In this document: one piece after another, positions 20,604-42,526 of the stretch
Layout of the letters: every line of letters starts with the position of its first letter
Numbering within the stretch: the first letter of the stretch is position 1
Assembly: GCA_012744275.1 (NCBI GenBank)
Contig: JAAYIE010000046.1
Location: 1-57,721, forward strand
Source: Desulfobulbaceae bacterium
Lineage (GTDB): Bacteria > Desulfobacterota > Desulfobulbia > Desulfobulbales > Desulfobulbaceae
Length of the DNA: 57,721 bases
Reading direction: 5' to 3'
The notes under the pieces: model-generated
Told to the model about the DNA's origin: nothing
The model's input: the letters and a program-made list of their open reading frames with translations, nothing else
Database searches by the model: none
Made by a program: the position numbers and the translations under genes

Positions 20604-23600
20604 TTAGGCTTTCTCGATTTTCACGAGAAACGCTTTGAATTCAGGGGTATAGGTGTTCGCATCCCCGACAAAGGGGGTCAGGGTATTGGCCAGATAGCCA
20701 TTCTTGGCCACGCCCAGGAAACCCCAGTGCAGCGGCACGCCCACGGTGTGCACCTTCTTACCCGCTATTTCAAGCGGCCGAATGCGTTTTGTCACCACGG
20801 CCATGGCAACAATAAAACCCCGCTTGGAGATTACCCGTACGCTATCGCCCGCCTTGATACCCTTTTCCCTGGCAAGCTCCTCGCCAATTTCCACAAACTG
20901 CTCCGGCTGGGTAATGGCATTGAGCCGGGCATGTTTGGTCCAGAAATGGAAGTGCTCGGTCAGGCGGTAGGTCGTGCACACATGCGGGAATTCAGCGGCA
21001 TCGCCAAAGCTGTCTTGATCACTGGCGAAGATCCGGGCTGCCGGGTTGAAACGGGCTGCCTCGTTGCCGCCATTAAAGGGATTAACCGCCAGAGGTGACT
21101 CCACCGGTTCGTAGTGCTCGGGGAAAGGACCTTCCGCCATTTTATCCACGGCAAACAGCCGCGCTACACCCTCTGGATTCATGATAAAGGGGCCCATGCC
21201 GTCGGCAGGGGGCGAGGCAGCGTTGAAATCCGGTACGTCAGAACCAAGCCAGCGCGATTTGTCCGCATCCCAGTAGACCAGGCTGCGGCTGGGATCAAAG
21301 GGCTTACCCTCCACATCACAGGAAGCACGATTGTAGAGCACGCGCCGATTAGCTGGCCAGGAGAAGGCCCAATTCAGGGTTTGGCCAATGCCATACGGGT
21401 CACTGTTGTCACGCCTGGCCATGAGGTTACCTGTTTCCGGCCAGCAGCCGGCAAAGAGCCAGCAGCCGCAGGAGGTGGAACCATCATCACGCAGTTCCGC
21501 AAAACCGTTAAGCTGCTGCCCAGCCTTGACCAGTACTTTGCCCGGATCGGACGGATCAGTCACGTCAAAGAGGGCCTTGCCCGAGAATTCTCGCGCCAGC
21601 TCTTCTGGTGTGGGCTCATGGGGAGTCAGATAGGGCCAGGTAAGATTGAGCACCGGATCAGGGAAAGCACCGCCGTCCTTGGCATACATCTCGCGCAATT
21701 TCAGGAAAATGCCTGCCAGGATGCGCTGATCGCTTATGGCCTCACCTGGAGGATCAGCTGCCTTCCAGTGCCATTGCAGCCAGCGGGACGAGTTGACGAT
21801 GGAACCGTTTTCCTCGGCAAAGCAGGTGGAGGGCAGACGAAAGACCTCGGTCTGAATCTTGGTCGGGTCAACATCGTTGTACTCGCCGTGATCCTGCCAG
21901 AACTCGGAGGTTTCCGTGGCAAGCGGATCAATCACCACCAGGTATTTCAACTTGGAGAGTGCGTTTGATACCTTGATCTTGCAGGGGGCAGAGGCAAGCG
22001 GGTTAAAACCCTGGCAGATGTACCCGTTCATCTCGCCATTGTTCATGTTCTCAAACACCTGCAGGATATCGTACATCTTATCCAGCTTGGGCAGCCATTC
22101 AAAGCACCAGCCATTATCTTCGGTAGCGGCATCGCCGTACCAGGCCTTCATGGTGCTCACGAAAAAACGGCCAAAATTCTGCCAGTAACTCATCTGGTTA
22201 GGCCTGAGCGGCTTGAGCGAGGAGCGGGCAATATAGGCAGCCGCGCTCTGGCGTACAGCTTCGGGCTGATTCGGCTGCATGGGCTGCTCCGGCGAATCTG
22301 TGGCCTCATCCGGCTCCTGTCTGGGTTTGCTTTCACCGGGCAGATTCAGGTAACCGGGCAAGAGGTTGCTCAACAGGCCAAGATCGGTCAGGCCCTGGAT
22401 ATTGGAGTGCCCGCGCAGGGCATTCACCCCGCCTCCGGCCATACCGATGTTGCCCAGGAGTAATTGGATCATGCAGGTGGTGCGGATGATCTGCGAACCC
22501 TTGGAGTGCTGGGTCCAACCCAGGGCATAGAGCGTGCTCAGGGTTTTATTGGGCGCGGCGGTTTCGGCGATCATCTTGCAGATGGTGAGAAAATCTTCCT
22601 TGGGCGTACCGCAGACCGTGGCCACCATGTCGGGCGTGTAGCGTTCATAATGTTTTTTCAGCAGCTGATATACGCAAAACGGATGTTGCCTGCTCGGATC
22701 AGTCAGCACATAGCCGTCCGGCCCCAGCTGATACTTCCAGGTGTCCTTGTTGTAGCTGCGTTTTTCCGGATCATAGCCGCTAAACAGGCCGTCTTTGAAG
22801 GCAAAGCCCTCATCTACCAGAAAGGTGAGATCGGTATAGGCGTTGACGTAGTCGTGGTTAATCGAATCTGTTGACAGCAAATAGTTGATAACACCGCCGA
22901 GAAAGGCGATGTCGCTGCCAGCGCGGATAGGGGCATAAACATCTGCCACCGCAGCCGAACGGGTAAAGCGCGGATCCACCACAATCAGCTTGGCACCGTT
23001 GTGGGCCTTGGCTTCGGTTACCCATTTAAAGCCGCAGGGGTGGGCTTCGGCGGCATTACCGCCCATGATAAGGATTAGATTTGCATTCTTGATATCGACC
23101 CAATGATTGGTCATTGCGCCGCGGCCAAACGTGGGGGCAAGACTTGCCACCGTGGGGCCGTGTCAGACCCGGGCCTGATTATCAAAGGCAAGCATGCCCA
23201 AACTACGGGCGATCTTATGGGTGAGGTAACCGGTTTCGTTACTGGATGCGGATGCGGCCAGCATACCCGTCGACACCCAGCGGTTGACGGTTTCGCCGTG
23301 CTGGTTTTTGCCGATGAAATGGGCGTCCCGATCTTCCTTCATCAGGGTGGCGATGCGGGTAAAAGCCTCGTCCCAGGAAATGCGCTGCCATTCTTTTGAG
23401 CCGGGCTTGCGGTATTCAGGATAGTGCAAACGATTTTCACTGTGGATAAAATCGAGCAACCCTGCGCCCTTGGGGCAGAGTGTGCCCCGATTCACCGGAT
23501 GATCCGGATCGCCTTCGATGTGCATGATGCTCGCCTTGGCATTGAGCGAGCCATCACCCTGACTGTAAATGAGCAGGCCACAGCCCACTGAACAGTAGGT

Positions 23601-27628: not shown

Positions 27629-29068
27629 TTAAACAGGACTACAAGGTTGCATCCCATCCTGGTTAAGGCCTGTTGATGCCATGATGCATTTTTCTAGCCG
27701 ACAGAGTAAAAGGGAACTGGTTTCTCCCGACACGATTTCTTCCGGCGCATGGAATAAGACCGTGTGGAACTGCAACCCTTCACCCTCAAAGCCCCGATGC
27801 TCCTGCTGCAGGGCAATGATGCGATCCAGTACTACCTGATAGTCCGGCTTGCCGGTTTTCGGCAAAAGCAGCCACAACAGATCCTGGCGAAAGCGGGAGA
27901 GCAGATCGACATTACGAATTTTCTCGCTGATACGATAGACAAAGGTGTCCAGCAACTCCATTCTGGCCCGGTTGGCCTCAGCGTCCACCTGGCCAGCAAA
28001 CTGGAGCCTGATGCCGATGAGGGTAAAAACCTCGCAGGAATCGCGGCCACAGAAATCCAGCAACCAGTTGATCATGTTGGTAAAAAAATGTGACGCCACC
28101 ACATTCGTTTCGTTCAGAACATCCGCAGGCTCAATAGTAAGGCCGCTTTTGAGGGCGTCGATACCTGCCCCAGTCAGCTCATAGCTATAAATTTGCCGTA
28201 CCAGCAGACGCCCAACCGGAGCCTGGCTGCCACACCGCAGGCAGTGAGCCTGCGGATCAGGCTGGGTGAAACTGTTGCCGCAACTGCGGCAGTTGAAGTT
28301 ACCTTGCACCCAATCATAGTCCGTTTTAATCTGCTGGAGCATGGCCTTGCACTGTGGACACATGAAGCCTTCTTCTGCAGATGAAGGCTTCTCTGCAACA
28401 TGGCCGCAAAGAAGGCATTGCATAAATGGAACCTCTTCTATAATGGTTCCCTTGCACTGCGGGCAATGATCCACCAAATTCAGCTGCAGGCTGCTGCACA
28501 CCGGGCAGTGACTGGTGCGATCGATCAGTTGCCGCCGCTGCAAATATCTCCAATCGCACAGGATAGCCAGCCGGGATGCCACCAGATGAGCAGACCCCAG
28601 CATGGCCTCAAGCAGGGTATAAGCGTAAGCATGTTCGTCCAGCCACACCCTGTGTGGGACGAGTTGTCGGTCGGGTCGGGAATACAGCAAAGCAAGGATG
28701 CGCAGGTAATCGCCCACGTCCACGTGAAAAACAGCATCATCCAACTCCGCCAGGCGGCGCAGGATCGGCTCGGCTTCGGTCGCTGCCGCAGCTACATCGG
28801 TCACCACTCCATCGACGAGCAGATCAAGCGGCTTGCCAAACCCTTCCGTGGTATACAATGGCTGCAGGCTGGTTCTCGGATCCTGCCGGAGAATGTGTAC
28901 GAGCCGGGATACCGACCTGGAGTCGGGGTAGGCCAGGACGAAAACGCTATCCCGCTGCTCTTCAAAGGAAATTTCATCGATATTCACGCAGTATTGCACC
29001 GGCTTGCCAGCTGTCTCCTCGGCAAAGCGCGCCACATCATCCGGTGGCAGAAAACAGACAAGTTTCAT
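27629..29068 (-). CDS. Zinc-ribbon (TackOD1-like) protein with degenerate GGDEF domain
   Basis: 479 residues. Residues 1-95 look like a receiver-like N-terminal domain without an obvious phospho-acceptor site. Residues 186-280 carry seven CxxC pairs (CPVC, CPQC, CLLC, CPQC, CRSC, CLRC and relatives) and the segment IKTDYDWVQGNFNCRSCG, which resembles the TackOD1 metal-binding output domain. Residues 345-460 have a GGDEF-like pattern (ELLDTFVYRISEKIRNVDLLSRFRQD) but no GG[DE]EF motif, so no cyclase activity is expected. Probably a signalling protein of unknown partner. Assigned from pattern only. Confidence 0.6.
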   Translation of the reverse strand: MKLVCFLPPDDVARFAEETAGKPVQYCVNIDEISFEEQRDSVFVLAYPDSRSVSRLVHILRQDPRTSLQPLYTTEGFGKPLDLLVDGVVTDVAAAATEAEPILRRLAELDDAVFHVDVGDYLRILALLYSRPDRQLVPHRVWLDEHAYAYTLLEAMLGSAHLVASRLAILCDWRYLQRRQLIDRTSHCPVCSSLQLNLVDHCPQCKGTIIEEVPFMQCLLCGHVAEKPSSAEEGFMCPQCKAMLQQIKTDYDWVQGNFNCRSCGNSFTQPDPQAHCLRCGSQAPVGRLLVRQIYSYELTGAGIDALKSGLTIEPADVLNETNVVASHFFTNMINWLLDFCGRDSCEVFTLIGIRLQFAGQVDAEANRARMELLDTFVYRISEKIRNVDLLSRFRQDLLWLLLPKTGKPDYQVVLDRIIALQQEHRGFEGEGLQFHTVLFHAPEEIVSGETSSLLLCRLEKCIMASTGLNQDGMQPCSPV

Positions 29069-38235: not shown

Positions 38236-40326
38236 TCAGTGCTCCTCCACACTAATGCGGGAGATGTCTGCCACCTCCAAAATCATGGCCATAAGAGCTG
38301 TGAGCATATTAAGCCGGTTCTGACGCTGCTGCGGGTCATCCGCCATCACCATAACCTGATCAAAAAACCGATCGACCGGCTCCTTAATCAGGAGCATGGT
38401 AACCAAAGCTTGCCGGTATTGAGCGGCCGCCAAAAACGGGCGGCTTTTTTGCTGTGACTCACCCAAGGCAGCAAAAAGGGCCTTCTCGGCATCCTCTGTA
38501 AACAGCTCCGGCCTGATCTCTGTTGCCCTGTTACTCTTGACAATGTTGCGAATACGCTTAAACGAGGCTGCCAGTATACGAAAATTTTCTTCTTTCTGCG
38601 CCTCGAGCAGAGCTTCGATGCGTAAAATGCAGTCACGAATATCATCAAAACGAGCAGCAGTAGCGGCATCAACCACATCTTGAGGCCGTCCTTCCGCGAT
38701 CTGCTCATTTTCAAAGCGCAGCCGGATAAAGGCCAACAAATCTTTGAGGCAGTGTTCATCTGCCCCACTCAGGTTACTATATTGCGCCAGCGCCGTCTGA
38801 GCCAATTCACGAAGCGATACCGTCAAGCCCTGACGGCGGATAATGTTGATCAGGCCAAGCGCCTGTCGCCGCAGGCCAAAGGCATCTTTGTTACCAGTGG
38901 GTTTTTCACCGATGGCAAAGCAACCAACCAGGGTATCCATGCGGTCGGCAAGCCCGATCAGGGCACCGGGCAAGGATGACGGCACAACCCCGCCAGCTCT
39001 CAAGGGCAGGTAATGCTCTTCAATTGCCAGGGCCACTGCTTCAGATTCACCATCACAACCAGCATAAACCCGGCCCATAATCCCCTGCAGGGATGGGAAC
39101 TCACCCACCATGCTGGTAAGCAAATCTGCCTTGGCAAGCTGGGCTGCCCGGCCTACGATTTCCTCCTGTCCTGGCGCCAGTTTTCTGGCCAGATACACCG
39201 CCAAGGCTGTGATGCGTTCCATCTTTTCCCGCATCGTACCGAGCTTCTGCTGAAAGACAATGCCGTCAAGCTCCGGGCTGCGTTCGGCAAGTGGCCTTTT
39301 GCGGTCTTCATTAAAAAAGAACAAGCCGTCTTCCAGACGGGCGCGCAACACCCGTTCATGCCCGCTGGCTGCAAGGGCCTGATCAACAATGTTGGTATTG
39401 TTCACAGCCACGAAATAGGGCAGCAGATCGCCATCTGCGTTCACAACAGGAAAATATTTTTGATGCTCTCGCATGGAGGTGACCAAGGCCTCGCTGGGCA
39501 ACTGCAGAAATTTTTCATCAAAACGACCGCAGATGGGATAAGGATGCTCAACCAGATTGGTGACCGTAGCTAAAAGTCCCTCGTGCAGCACAGCCTGCGC
39601 TCCGACAACCGGCACCTGCTGCTGTACAGCGCTGTTCACTGCAACCACAACCTGCTCTCGCCGCTGGACAGGGTCTACCACCACGAAACGGGCAGCAAGC
39701 CCCTGCAGGTAGGAATCCAGACCATCCACGGTAAAAGGTTCCGGTGCATGAAAACGATGACCGTGGCTGATATTGCCGCAGGGGATGTTTTCAATGGCGA
39801 GTGGCAGTACTTCGCCGTCATAAAGAGCCAAAAGCCACTGGATGGGCCGGGCAAAGACCAAATTGGTATTGGCCCAGCGCATTGATTTTGGGAACACGAT
39901 TTCCCTGACCAGAGATTCCAGCAATTCCGGCAGGAGGGCGCGCGTTTCCAGGCCTTTGATATCCTCGACTGCCATAAGGTAGTCGCCCTTGGCCGTGGTA
40001 ACCACTTGCAAATCCTCTGCCTTAAGGCCATGGGAGCGGGCAAATCCCGTCGCAGCCTTGCTCATGCGGCCATCTGTATCCACACCAGCGGCCTTGGAAG
40101 GACCGATATATTCCACCCGCCGATCTTGCTGCCGATCTTGCAGAGCCCGAACAGCCAAGGTCAGACGGCGAGGTGTGCCAAAGGTTTGCATACCTTCATA
40201 GGCAAGGCCTAACTCTTCCAGCTTTCGTGCCGCACGTGCGGCCATGCTCGCCAAAGCTGGTTCAATATAGCCTGCAGGGATTTCCTCGGCGCCGATTTCA
40301 AACAGCAGTTCGCGCATTGCGGTCAT
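38236..40326 (-). CDS. glyS: Glycine--tRNA ligase beta subunit
   Basis: 696 residues, typical length for the beta subunit of the heterotetrameric bacterial enzyme. It starts MTAMRELLFEIGAEEIPAGYI, with the ATG three codons in also usable. VFPKSMRW, NTNIVDQALAASGHERVLRARLEDGLFF and the C-terminal anticodon-binding-type helices (FFDQVMVMADDPQQRQNRL) are typical. The alpha subunit gene (glyQ) is not in the window. Last gene of the rpoZ operon. Confidence 0.97.
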   Translation of the reverse strand: MTAMRELLFEIGAEEIPAGYIEPALASMAARAARKLEELGLAYEGMQTFGTPRRLTLAVRALQDRQQDRRVEYIGPSKAAGVDTDGRMSKAATGFARSHGLKAEDLQVVTTAKGDYLMAVEDIKGLETRALLPELLESLVREIVFPKSMRWANTNLVFARPIQWLLALYDGEVLPLAIENIPCGNISHGHRFHAPEPFTVDGLDSYLQGLAARFVVVDPVQRREQVVVAVNSAVQQQVPVVGAQAVLHEGLLATVTNLVEHPYPICGRFDEKFLQLPSEALVTSMREHQKYFPVVNADGDLLPYFVAVNNTNIVDQALAASGHERVLRARLEDGLFFFNEDRKRPLAERSPELDGIVFQQKLGTMREKMERITALAVYLARKLAPGQEEIVGRAAQLAKADLLTSMVGEFPSLQGIMGRVYAGCDGESEAVALAIEEHYLPLRAGGVVPSSLPGALIGLADRMDTLVGCFAIGEKPTGNKDAFGLRRQALGLINIIRRQGLTVSLRELAQTALAQYSNLSGADEHCLKDLLAFIRLRFENEQIAEGRPQDVVDAATAARFDDIRDCILRIEALLEAQKEENFRILAASFKRIRNIVKSNRATEIRPELFTEDAEKALFAALGESQQKSRPFLAAAQYRQALVTMLLIKEPVDRFFDQVMVMADDPQQRQNRLNMLTALMAMILEVADISRISVEEH

Positions 40327-40341
40327 GACGACAATGAAGAA

Positions 40342-41103
40342 TCAGAGATTATGGGCCGCAGCCAGCCCAGAGAAAACGGATGAATCAGACAAAGGACCAT
40401 AGGGTGGCCGCTCATCGGGCCACTCACGAGCGGCAAAACCTGCATATCCATTTGCCGTATTTTTCACAAGCACTTTGTACCAGTCCACAACATTGGTTTT
40501 TTCAAGGGCCGCGCCTATGGTCGCACAGGCATTTTCCACCGTGGGTATTTGGTCGCCTGCAGTGGTCAGAGCCTCTTCCACCAAGGCGATTAAATCTTCA
40601 ATCCAGAGCAGGCGTCGCATCCGCACCGCCACCGTGGCTAAACCCCACATGGTGGGCGCGGGCTTTGCATCTGCACAAGATAACGCGGGTACGGGCACAT
40701 CGACTGCAACTACCAGATCCAGCTCGTCCGCCAGTGAACCGTACAATCTGCAGGTATAGCGGGCAAGCCGCATCTCGCCATTGCGGCTCAGGGTAAAGAA
40801 ATAAGGAAAACACATCTCAAGATGCGCAGCTTCGGCATCAAGCAGTTCTTTCATTTCCTCCATGATGCGCTGATAGGCGGCCAAGGTAAAACGGTCGTGG
40901 AAGCGATTGAGGATTTCCACAAAGCGGCTCATGTGCGTCCCCTTGAAATGATGCGGCAGGTTGACGTACATGTTGACAGTGGCAATAGTTTTTTGGGCGC
41001 GGTGCGCTTTGTCAAGCACGATGACCGGGTAGCTCACTCCCTTGACGCCCACCTTGCGGATATTGATGCGCCGGCTGTCAGGCAGATTTTGAATGTCTTT
41101 CAT
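40342..41103 (-). CDS. FolE2/MptA-family protein (DUF198), probably not a standard cyclohydrolase
   Basis: 253 residues. The first half is clearly FolE2: RKVGVKGVSYPVIVLD, ATVNMYVNLPHHFKGTHMSRFVEIL. In canonical FolE2 (GTP cyclohydrolase type IB) the region near residue 140 carries LCPCSKxIS and AHNQR, with metal-binding and catalytic Cys/His, and an NHSAYA-like His motif lies near the end. Here residues 137-155 read PVPALSCADAKPAPTMWGL, and the C-terminal His motif is NTANGYAGFA. One nearby Cys (Cys143) remains but out of register. No frameshift explains this; no frame restores the motif. Its role is unknown. It lies between the receiver gene and glyS. Confidence 0.8.
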   Translation of the reverse strand: MKDIQNLPDSRRINIRKVGVKGVSYPVIVLDKAHRAQKTIATVNMYVNLPHHFKGTHMSRFVEILNRFHDRFTLAAYQRIMEEMKELLDAEAAHLEMCFPYFFTLSRNGEMRLARYTCRLYGSLADELDLVVAVDVPVPALSCADAKPAPTMWGLATVAVRMRRLLWIEDLIALVEEALTTAGDQIPTVENACATIGAALEKTNVVDWYKVLVKNTANGYAGFAAREWPDERPPYGPLSDSSVFSGLAAAHNL

Positions 41104-41158: not shown

Positions 41159-41515
41159 TCAGGTCAGCAGCTTGCGTACCGTGTCTTTCAACTCGTCCAT
41201 ATCATAGGATTTAACCACATAGGCATCCGAGGCCCAGGCACCAAGATCCTGCTTAAATTGCTGGTAGGCGGAGTTGAGCACAATCGGCAAATCCGGACAC
41301 TGTTCCTTCATGCGCCTGAGCACCTCTATGCCGTTGATGCCGGGCATATTGATATCCAGAATCACCAGATCTGGCGGGCTGGCACTGAAGGCGGCCAAGG
41401 CGGCCTCACCGTTGAAGGCTGTTTCCACCGTATAACCTTCATCGGTAAATTCTTCATTGTACAACAGCTGGATGGCGGGTTCGTCATCCACAATCAAAAT
41501 TCTTTTCTGTAACAT
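41159..41515 (-). CDS. Single-domain response regulator (receiver only)
   Basis: 118 residues, a CheY-like receiver with no output domain. The N-terminal ILIVDDEPAIQ acidic pair and the phospho-acceptor Asp in DLVILDINMPGINGIEVL are present. The conserved Lys lies in YVVKSYDMDELK. It would act through protein-protein contact. It is encoded 9 bases after galT, within a housekeeping operon, so its kinase is probably elsewhere. Confidence 0.93.
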   Translation of the reverse strand: MLQKRILIVDDEPAIQLLYNEEFTDEGYTVETAFNGEAALAAFSASPPDLVILDINMPGINGIEVLRRMKEQCPDLPIVLNSAYQQFKQDLGAWASDAYVVKSYDMDELKDTVRKLLT

Positions 41516-41524
41516 GCTCCCTCC

Positions 41525-42526
41525 TTATAGCTGTACTTCTTTCAGATATGAACAACTCAGCTCCGGCGGCATGGGGTTGATGTAAAAGCCTGTTCCCCAT
41601 TCAAAGCCGGCAATGGAAGTCAGCTTGGGTACGATCTCGAAGTGCCAGTGGTAATGCTCAAGGGGACCTGTGCGGAGTGGCTGGGTGTGCAGGAGAAAAT
41701 TATAGGGGATATCTTTTATGCAGCTGTCGAGCCGGCGCAAAGTTTCAGAAAAAATGCGGGAAAGCGAAGGCAGCCAAGAGTCGGGCATATCAATGTAGGA
41801 AGAACTGTGTTGCCGGGGCAGAATCCACAGCTCAAACGGAGACCTGGGCGCAAAGGGAGTCAGGGTAACAAAGTGCTCGTTCTGGCAGACCAGGCGGATA
41901 TCCTGCTGCAGTTCCTGCCGGATGATATCGCAGTAAATGCAGCGGTCCTTGTAGCAGAAATAGGAAAGACAACCCTCAAGTTCAGAGGTGATCATCCGCG
42001 GCAAAACCGGCAGGGCAATCAGCTGGGAGTGGGAGTGCTCCAGGGAAGCTCCGGCAGCACTGCCATAGTTTTTAAACACGACCACATAGTTGAAGCGAAT
42101 ATCCCTGGACAGGTCCCGAATCCTGTCCTGGAAAGCCATAAAGGTCAGTTGCAGGTCTTGCGGTGGCAGATGGGTGAAGCTGGCATCGTGATGAGGGGTA
42201 TCAATGATGACCTCATGCGCTCCAATGCCGTTCATGCGGTCGTAGAGACCTTCGGCTTCCTTATCCAGATTGCCTTCGATTACCAGTGCCGGGAACTTGT
42301 TCGGCACCACCCGCAGCGTCCAGCCGGGGGTGTTGGCCTGTCCGTTGTTGCGGCCATAGGCCAGCACCTCGGGCGGTGTGGTTTTTTCATTGCCTGGACA
42401 AAGCGGACAAAAGCCGCCCTTGCTCTTCGTGCTGACATCAACGTAAAAATCCGTAGGCCGCTTGCCCCGCTCCTGGGCAATGATGATCCAACGGCCAAGA
42501 ATAGGGTCTTTGCGCAGTTCAGGCAT
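41525..42526 (-). CDS. galT: Galactose-1-phosphate uridylyltransferase (GalT family)
   Basis: 333 residues, a HIT-superfamily nucleotidyltransferase. CPLCPGNEKTTPPEV and CIYCDII are zinc-binding cysteine pairs, and EHSHSQLIALP contains the HxHxQ catalytic motif with the nucleophilic His. The C-terminal EHYHWHFEIVPKL segment supports the fold. It moves UMP between UDP-glucose and galactose-1-phosphate, but relatives also act on other sugar phosphates or on ATP/ADP. Neighbours give no sugar context. Confidence 0.9.
   Translation of the reverse strand: MPELRKDPILGRWIIIAQERGKRPTDFYVDVSTKSKGGFCPLCPGNEKTTPPEVLAYGRNNGQANTPGWTLRVVPNKFPALVIEGNLDKEAEGLYDRMNGIGAHEVIIDTPHHDASFTHLPPQDLQLTFMAFQDRIRDLSRDIRFNYVVVFKNYGSAAGASLEHSHSQLIALPVLPRMITSELEGCLSYFCYKDRCIYCDIIRQELQQDIRLVCQNEHFVTLTPFAPRSPFELWILPRQHSSSYIDMPDSWLPSLSRIFSETLRRLDSCIKDIPYNFLLHTQPLRTGPLEHYHWHFEIVPKLTSIAGFEWGTGFYINPMPPELSCSYLKEVQL

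Follow-up and report, generated by a model that had tools for sequence, protein, structure and literature searches.

A FolE2-like gene of the Desulfobulbales and its paralogue as probable complementary halves of a GTP cyclohydrolase IB

The window, i.e., the whole analysed stretch of 57,721 nucleotides from a Desulfobulbaceae bacterium (contig JAAYIE010000046.1), contains a FolE2-like gene, called type c here, which is most likely the N-terminal domain half of a FolE2 encoded by two genes. A second gene of the same genome, called type a, carries the C-terminal motifs which c lacks. We consider it quite probable that an ancestral FolE2 was duplicated, that each copy lost the part of the active site which the other retains, and that a and c now form a heteromer with a shared GTP cyclohydrolase site. 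The features of the window which are referred to in the text are the following:

38236..40326 (-): glyS (glycyl-tRNA synthetase beta chain); downstream of c in 40 of the 41 fetched loci
40342..41103 (-): type c FolE2-like protein, 253 amino acids, ATG start, proposed N-domain donor of the heteromer (profile match, alignment, AlphaFold2 model, fold match)
40429..40482 (-): WYKVLVKNTANGYAGFAA, residues 208-225 of c, in place of W..V..E..ESIHNHSAYA (alignment)
40639..40689 (-): PALSCADAKPAPTMWGL, residues 139-155 of c, in place of LCPCSKEIS...AHNQR (alignment)
40921..40944 (-): KGTHMSRF, residues 54-61 of c (alignment)
41159..41515 (-): single-domain response-regulator receiver, upstream of c in all 41 fetched loci
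41525..42526 (-): GalT-like uridylyltransferase (PF01087, also DUF4921), neighbour in all 41 fetched loci

The type c gene, its family and its locus

The window gene had initially been annotated as a FolE2-family protein without the signature Cys/His motifs, and this was borne out. PF02649 matches residues 1-181 with 128.3 bits (cut-off 25), and three solved FolE2 sequences align from residues 1-2 to 142-179. The cut-off of the NCBIfam FolE2 equivalog is not reached (105.8 vs 215 bits), and an identity as MptA was ruled out by the NCBIfam MptA score (44.2 bits, cut-off 220). The N-terminal half is FolE2-like, as had been described, and retains DIQ..DSRR, NMYVNLPHHF and KGTHMSRFVEIL. Each residue of KGTHMSRF is present in all 42 c sequences of the alignment.

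The CPC, HNQR, KRPDEK and HNH/H.H motifs, with their Cys, His and Glu residues, carry the metal-binding and catalytic residues of known FolE2. In the window gene, LCPCSK, AHNQR, KRPDEK and IHNH are all absent, and NTANGYAGFAA stands at the C-terminal H-N-H stretch, in agreement with the loss of the His motif noted before. The ligands are not found at equivalent positions either: in the alignment of the 42 c sequences, C153, C155, H165, E207, E212, H252, and H254 are each kept in 0-5%.

The structure prediction proposed as a check was carried out with AlphaFold2 from seven sequences and gave two T-fold units (pLDDT 74.7, pTM 0.73). The best fold match of this model is 2r5r with a Z score of 21.2 over 212 residues. 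Among solved structures, those of FolE2 align with the model over 207-218 residues at Z of about 19-21, followed by urate oxidases with Z of 13-15; a Foldseek search was also run on the model. Type c thus shares with FolE2/GTP cyclohydrolase IB (PF02649; 2r5r, 3d2o, 5k95, 8g6c) the bimodular T-fold, the KGTHMSRF of the N-terminal domain and a match over the whole length, but it lacks the Cys/His/Glu motifs of the C-terminal domain, which lie on a separate paralogue.

PF02649 was searched in 55 genomes, comprising the window's own and relatives from its genus, family, and order, and was matched in all of them in three score classes. From 41 genomes, 41 c-class loci were fetched and aligned with the window gene. 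The motif C[PA]CS is absent from all 41 fetched c ORFs. They have in common the N-terminal half, followed by Y.C...G(S/T)L and a GxWG stretch, which lies in the replacement of LCPCSKEIS...AHNQR and whose G and W are kept in 40 and 41 of the 42 sequences, respectively. The longer form PRSxGxWG occurs in about half of the family (R 19/42, S 26/42), and the H of GHWG is not retained in the window's own genus. At the position of HNHSAYA, mostly GYSTFAS is found. A subfamily of this kind, which was to be sought in other Desulfobacterota, therefore exists across the order Desulfobulbales (41/41 fetched orthologues). Outside the order, 316 genomes of a 376-genome sample of the phylum match A1, the profile for the C-terminal part of type c, nearly always once. 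The loci read from the best-scoring matches, 30 (L045-L062, L147-L158; 28 different genes) and additionally L067, all carry CPCS, and no type c was seen among the best matches of this sample.

The gene order at the c loci is rpoZ, dnaJ, (moaC), dksA, galT, receiver, c, and glyS on one strand. The suggested conservation beside glyS, galT, and a receiver gene was confirmed, with galT, receiver, and c together at every fetched locus and glyS absent only from the fetched stretch of L105, while other members are missing at some loci, partly through contig ends. The receiver gene precedes c throughout the fetched loci of the order. Elsewhere in the window, a SECIS_3 element (23110-23168 (-), 82.7 bits) overlaps the start of ORF 20604-23150 (-), a molybdopterin oxidoreductase (PF00384, PF01568). 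Because of this overlap, the ORF probably starts further upstream with a UGA read as selenocysteine, as in formate dehydrogenases. Furthermore, ORF 27629-29068 (-) contains a TackOD1 domain ("Thaumarchaeal output domain 1," PF18551, 136 bits) in a bacterial genome.

The alternative frames of the 42 c genes were analyzed from residue 111 onward for the look-alike patterns LCxC, CPCS, HNQR, and HNH, which were found in 3 of the 84 frames. The carriers are the window gene (LCRCKARAHH), L086, and L096, none of the look-alikes is common to different genes, and they were judged to be due to chance. In frame, the looser pattern H[NS]H occurs in a single c gene (L069), by eye as HSH in the motif-replacing loop. 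The whole-gene dN/dS of c is 0.06-0.27 in nine within-genus pairs (dS is saturated in the 0.06 pair). For the N-terminal half, values of 0.025-0.09 were obtained from eight pairs (dS saturated in one), vs 0.14-0.47 for the C-terminal half. Based on these values, c is under purifying selection, which is strongest in the N-terminal domain. The statement that other frames do not restore the motifs and that no simple frameshift is involved holds true: a simple frameshift or pseudogene is excluded by the alternative frames, the in-frame orthologues, and the low dN/dS.

A second paralogue with the reciprocal pattern

A check for a second folE or folE2 in the genome had been recommended, and one was found, although it is not fully canonical. 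This type a gene (G000:C155:74418-75116) matches PF02649 with 224 bits and contains LCPCSKEIS, AHNQR, LKRPDEK, and IHAH. KGTHMSR is absent from it, and type a in general lacks the D..Q..D.R start as well. Of the residues of KGTHMSRF, the H is found in none of 30 type-a sequences, 28 of which have Cys instead, and the R in only one. The partner from the window's genome remains below the NCBIfam FolE2 cut-off (206.7 vs 215 bits), which was passed by two of the three type-a proteins tested. Types a and c are located on different contigs of the window's genome and far apart in the single-contig genomes examined, which counts against a heteromer. By eye, no folate gene was read among the ORFs adjoining the type-a gene in the window's genome, which is a lead only.

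The two types were compared in an alignment of 33 complete FolE2 rows, 30 type-a (L001, L004-L032) and 42 type-c proteins. The complete rows comprise 32 from other orders or phyla and L003 from a genus of the order (g9, see below); two genes occur twice, so that 31 are different, and KGTHMSR is invariant in all of them. Conservation in at least 90% of the complete rows was found for 106 columns; 16 of these had intermediate values in a or c and were left unclassified. The remaining 90 columns are retained in both types (24), in a only (41), in c only (24), or in neither (1), whereas 11.7 columns of the last class are expected under independence (Fisher P 1.6e-7, to be taken as a guide only, as columns are not independent). 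Every one of the 41 a-only columns falls within reference residues 114-257, and 21 of the 24 c-only columns fall within residues 12-103, so by alignment the reciprocal loss follows the domain boundary. As members of one family, a and c differ in that CPC, HNQR, KRPDEK, and H.H are kept and KGTHMSR and D..Q..D.R lost in a.

Other enzymes for the same step were searched as well. The type IA enzyme (PF01227) was found in none of the 55 genomes, while 11 of 14 controls were positive. A third PF02649 paralogue, class b, is MptA-like and occurs in part of the order (e.g., G027, G035, G037, G040). All 15 class-b loci (L110-L124) have GIHMSR and CPCT, and HSQR and HxH are present as well in the loci that were read completely. 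Like c, this MptA-type cyclohydrolase is a PF02649 paralogue but, unlike c, it is by motif a complete enzyme. It was found neither in the window's genome nor in 23 searched genomes of its genus, and for the first step of folate synthesis the window's genome yielded no candidates other than a and c.

Co-occurrence was determined in 197 genomes of the order with at least 85% completeness, using a profile for type a (A2) and the above profile A1 for type c. Presence was called at E<=1e-100 with A2 and E<=1e-25 with A1, thresholds set after the gap between the groups had been seen; the narrowest pass of c is G525 with 6e-26. Both genes are above threshold in 174 genomes. In another five, both are present but one of them is truncated at a contig end (a in G440, G444, G467, and G562, c in G038), which gives 179 of the 197. 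Both were found in all 41 genomes with at least 99% completeness and in all 17 genomes with 10 contigs or fewer. In ten genomes with c, a was not found (G025, G039, G043, G047, G441, G455, G493, G526, G569, G577), the most complete of these being 97, 96, and 95% complete and c itself being cut in G577. In five genomes with a, c was not found (G033, G458, G468, G544, G580). These absences from 10 and 5 of the 197 genomes argue against a heteromer, though all 15 are drafts with 85-97% completeness. Four of the ten carry class b (G043, G047, G569, and, from the score profile alone, G441), and c might outlive a there.

Finally, neither a nor c occurs in the genus g9, of which three genomes of at least 85% completeness were sampled (G030, G456, G457). 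Each of them has a single FolE2 with KGTHMSR, CPCS, HNQR, and HNH (L003, L191, L192), and no c gene lies upstream of glyS in any of the three. In the quick tree described below, L003 groups with a Eubacterium sequence on a long branch. The single FolE2 of this genus may have been acquired.

In a quick maximum-likelihood tree with a weak backbone and only one row from another phylum (L068), a and c each form one clade (support 100) beside the FolE2 of Desulfobacterota. An origin of type a outside the phylum is unsupported by this placement. When a and c were constrained to group together, with L068 left out, the likelihood was 18 units above that of the free quick tree (p-AU 0.79). One a+c clade is thus not rejected, and a single duplication behind both types is allowed, if not proven, by these sequences. 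The a/c split is old, since 13 of the 15 families of the order that were searched contain both types; f7 and f11, with one genome each, show c only. Types a and c evolve faster than the other five of the seven proteins compared. Their rate correlation beyond background is the highest of 21 pairs (partial r 0.49, from the 36 of 38 genomes in which every gene was found), and the next values, 0.46 and 0.45, belong to unrelated housekeeping pairs. It fits a partnership and is suggestive, not strong alone.

A proposed heteromeric FolE2 and competing explanations

The pattern is best explained by an ancestral FolE2 gene which would have been duplicated before the Desulfobulbales diversified, after which the copies would have shed complementary halves of the active site. 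Type c would contribute the N-terminal T-fold domain with D..Q..D.R, N.Y, and KGTHMSR, and type a the C-terminal T-fold domain with the CPC, HNQR, KRPDEK, and H.H motifs. Most likely, both assemble as a heteromer, in which the interface between the N-terminal domain of c and the C-terminal domain of a would form the complete GTP cyclohydrolase site. The other interface, between the N-terminal domain of a and the C-terminal domain of c, would be dead. The association of a and c, the site between subunits, the shared activity feeding folate synthesis and the single duplication are deduced from the patterns described above.

Urate oxidase also contains two T-fold units per chain. In this T-fold tetramer, the sites are located at dimer interfaces, where Thr57*/Lys10* of one subunit meet Arg176, His256, and Asn254 of another (PMC2490695). 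If FolE2 is built in the same way, an a/c heteromer would have one class of interfaces with all motifs and another with neither set. Urate oxidase differs from a/c as a homomer with both halves in every chain. The QueF of V. cholerae, another bimodular relative, has its sites inside one subunit (PMC5372742). This speaks against a simple complementation of a and c, as a FolE2 built like QueF would need domain swapping. If the site lay within one chain, neither a nor c would have a complete one; the columns fit an inter-subunit site instead.

The nearest precedent among the literature examined is the deoxyhypusine synthase of trypanosomatids. When this enzyme forms a heterotetramer with a paralogue that is catalytically dead, its activity increases 3000-fold, and both proteins are essential (PMC3663545). 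An impaired enzyme is paired with a dead paralogue in this case too, but the reaction is unrelated and the organism is a eukaryotic parasite. No title or abstract among the matches listed dealt with a split or heteromeric FolE2, and a literature search for "FolE2" with "Desulfobulb" gave no match.

Alternatively, c could be a regulatory or scaffolding pseudoenzyme, which binds a nucleotide or pterin via its N-terminal domain or tunes a, while a alone catalyses the reaction with a changed N-terminal domain. This would agree with a protein without the Cys/His/Glu motifs which is nevertheless under purifying selection, with the receiver gene adjoining it at each of the 41 fetched loci, whose cluster also includes dksA and rpoZ, and with the C-terminal motifs retained in a. 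However, it leaves unexplained why a has lost the very N-terminal residues kept by c, including KGTHMSR, and why both are jointly absent from genus g9, which has a complete FolE2, and we regard it as unlikely. Even less credible is a different, metal-independent enzyme with the conserved GxWG replacement as part of a new active site. Lineage-specific conserved residues indeed replace the lost motifs (W 41/42, G 40/42), but dN/dS is higher in the C-terminal than in the N-terminal half, the reverse of what it predicts, and the window's own genus does not conserve the H of GHWG. Of the initial proposal of a paralogue with a new role, the conserved paralogue stands across the order, whereas the new role is not favoured, because a reaction divided between two chains explains more, the partner lacking the N-terminal motifs that c keeps. 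A decaying copy or an assembly error would account for the lost C-terminal motifs and the score below the NCBIfam FolE2 cut-off, but is practically negligible given the same pattern in 41/41 orthologues, the fixed synteny, the dN/dS of 0.06-0.27, and the presence of c in single-contig genomes.

Two features expected of an obligate heteromer were observed: conserved residues of the putative active site have been lost reciprocally, and the copies are retained jointly. We are inclined, with less confidence than for the heteromer itself, to extend it to nearly the whole order: the first step of folate synthesis would depend on two half-dead FolE2 paralogues joined in an obligate heteromer, its sole working site lying between the N-terminal domain of c and the C-terminal domain of a. 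The dead interface, with conserved residues of its own (GxWG in c, Cys in a), would fix a strict a:c assembly.

By family score, many type-a proteins would be taken for ordinary FolE2 and c for a stray paralogue, so that both would be misread. If true, two unlinked genes would be jointly required for folate synthesis, and a homo-oligomeric enzyme would have become an obligate two-gene heteromer through reciprocal degeneration, a clear natural case with one genus showing a one-gene solution. It would also reveal which residues of FolE2 act across the subunit interface and would provide a ready system for testing the origin of complexity that is hard to reverse.
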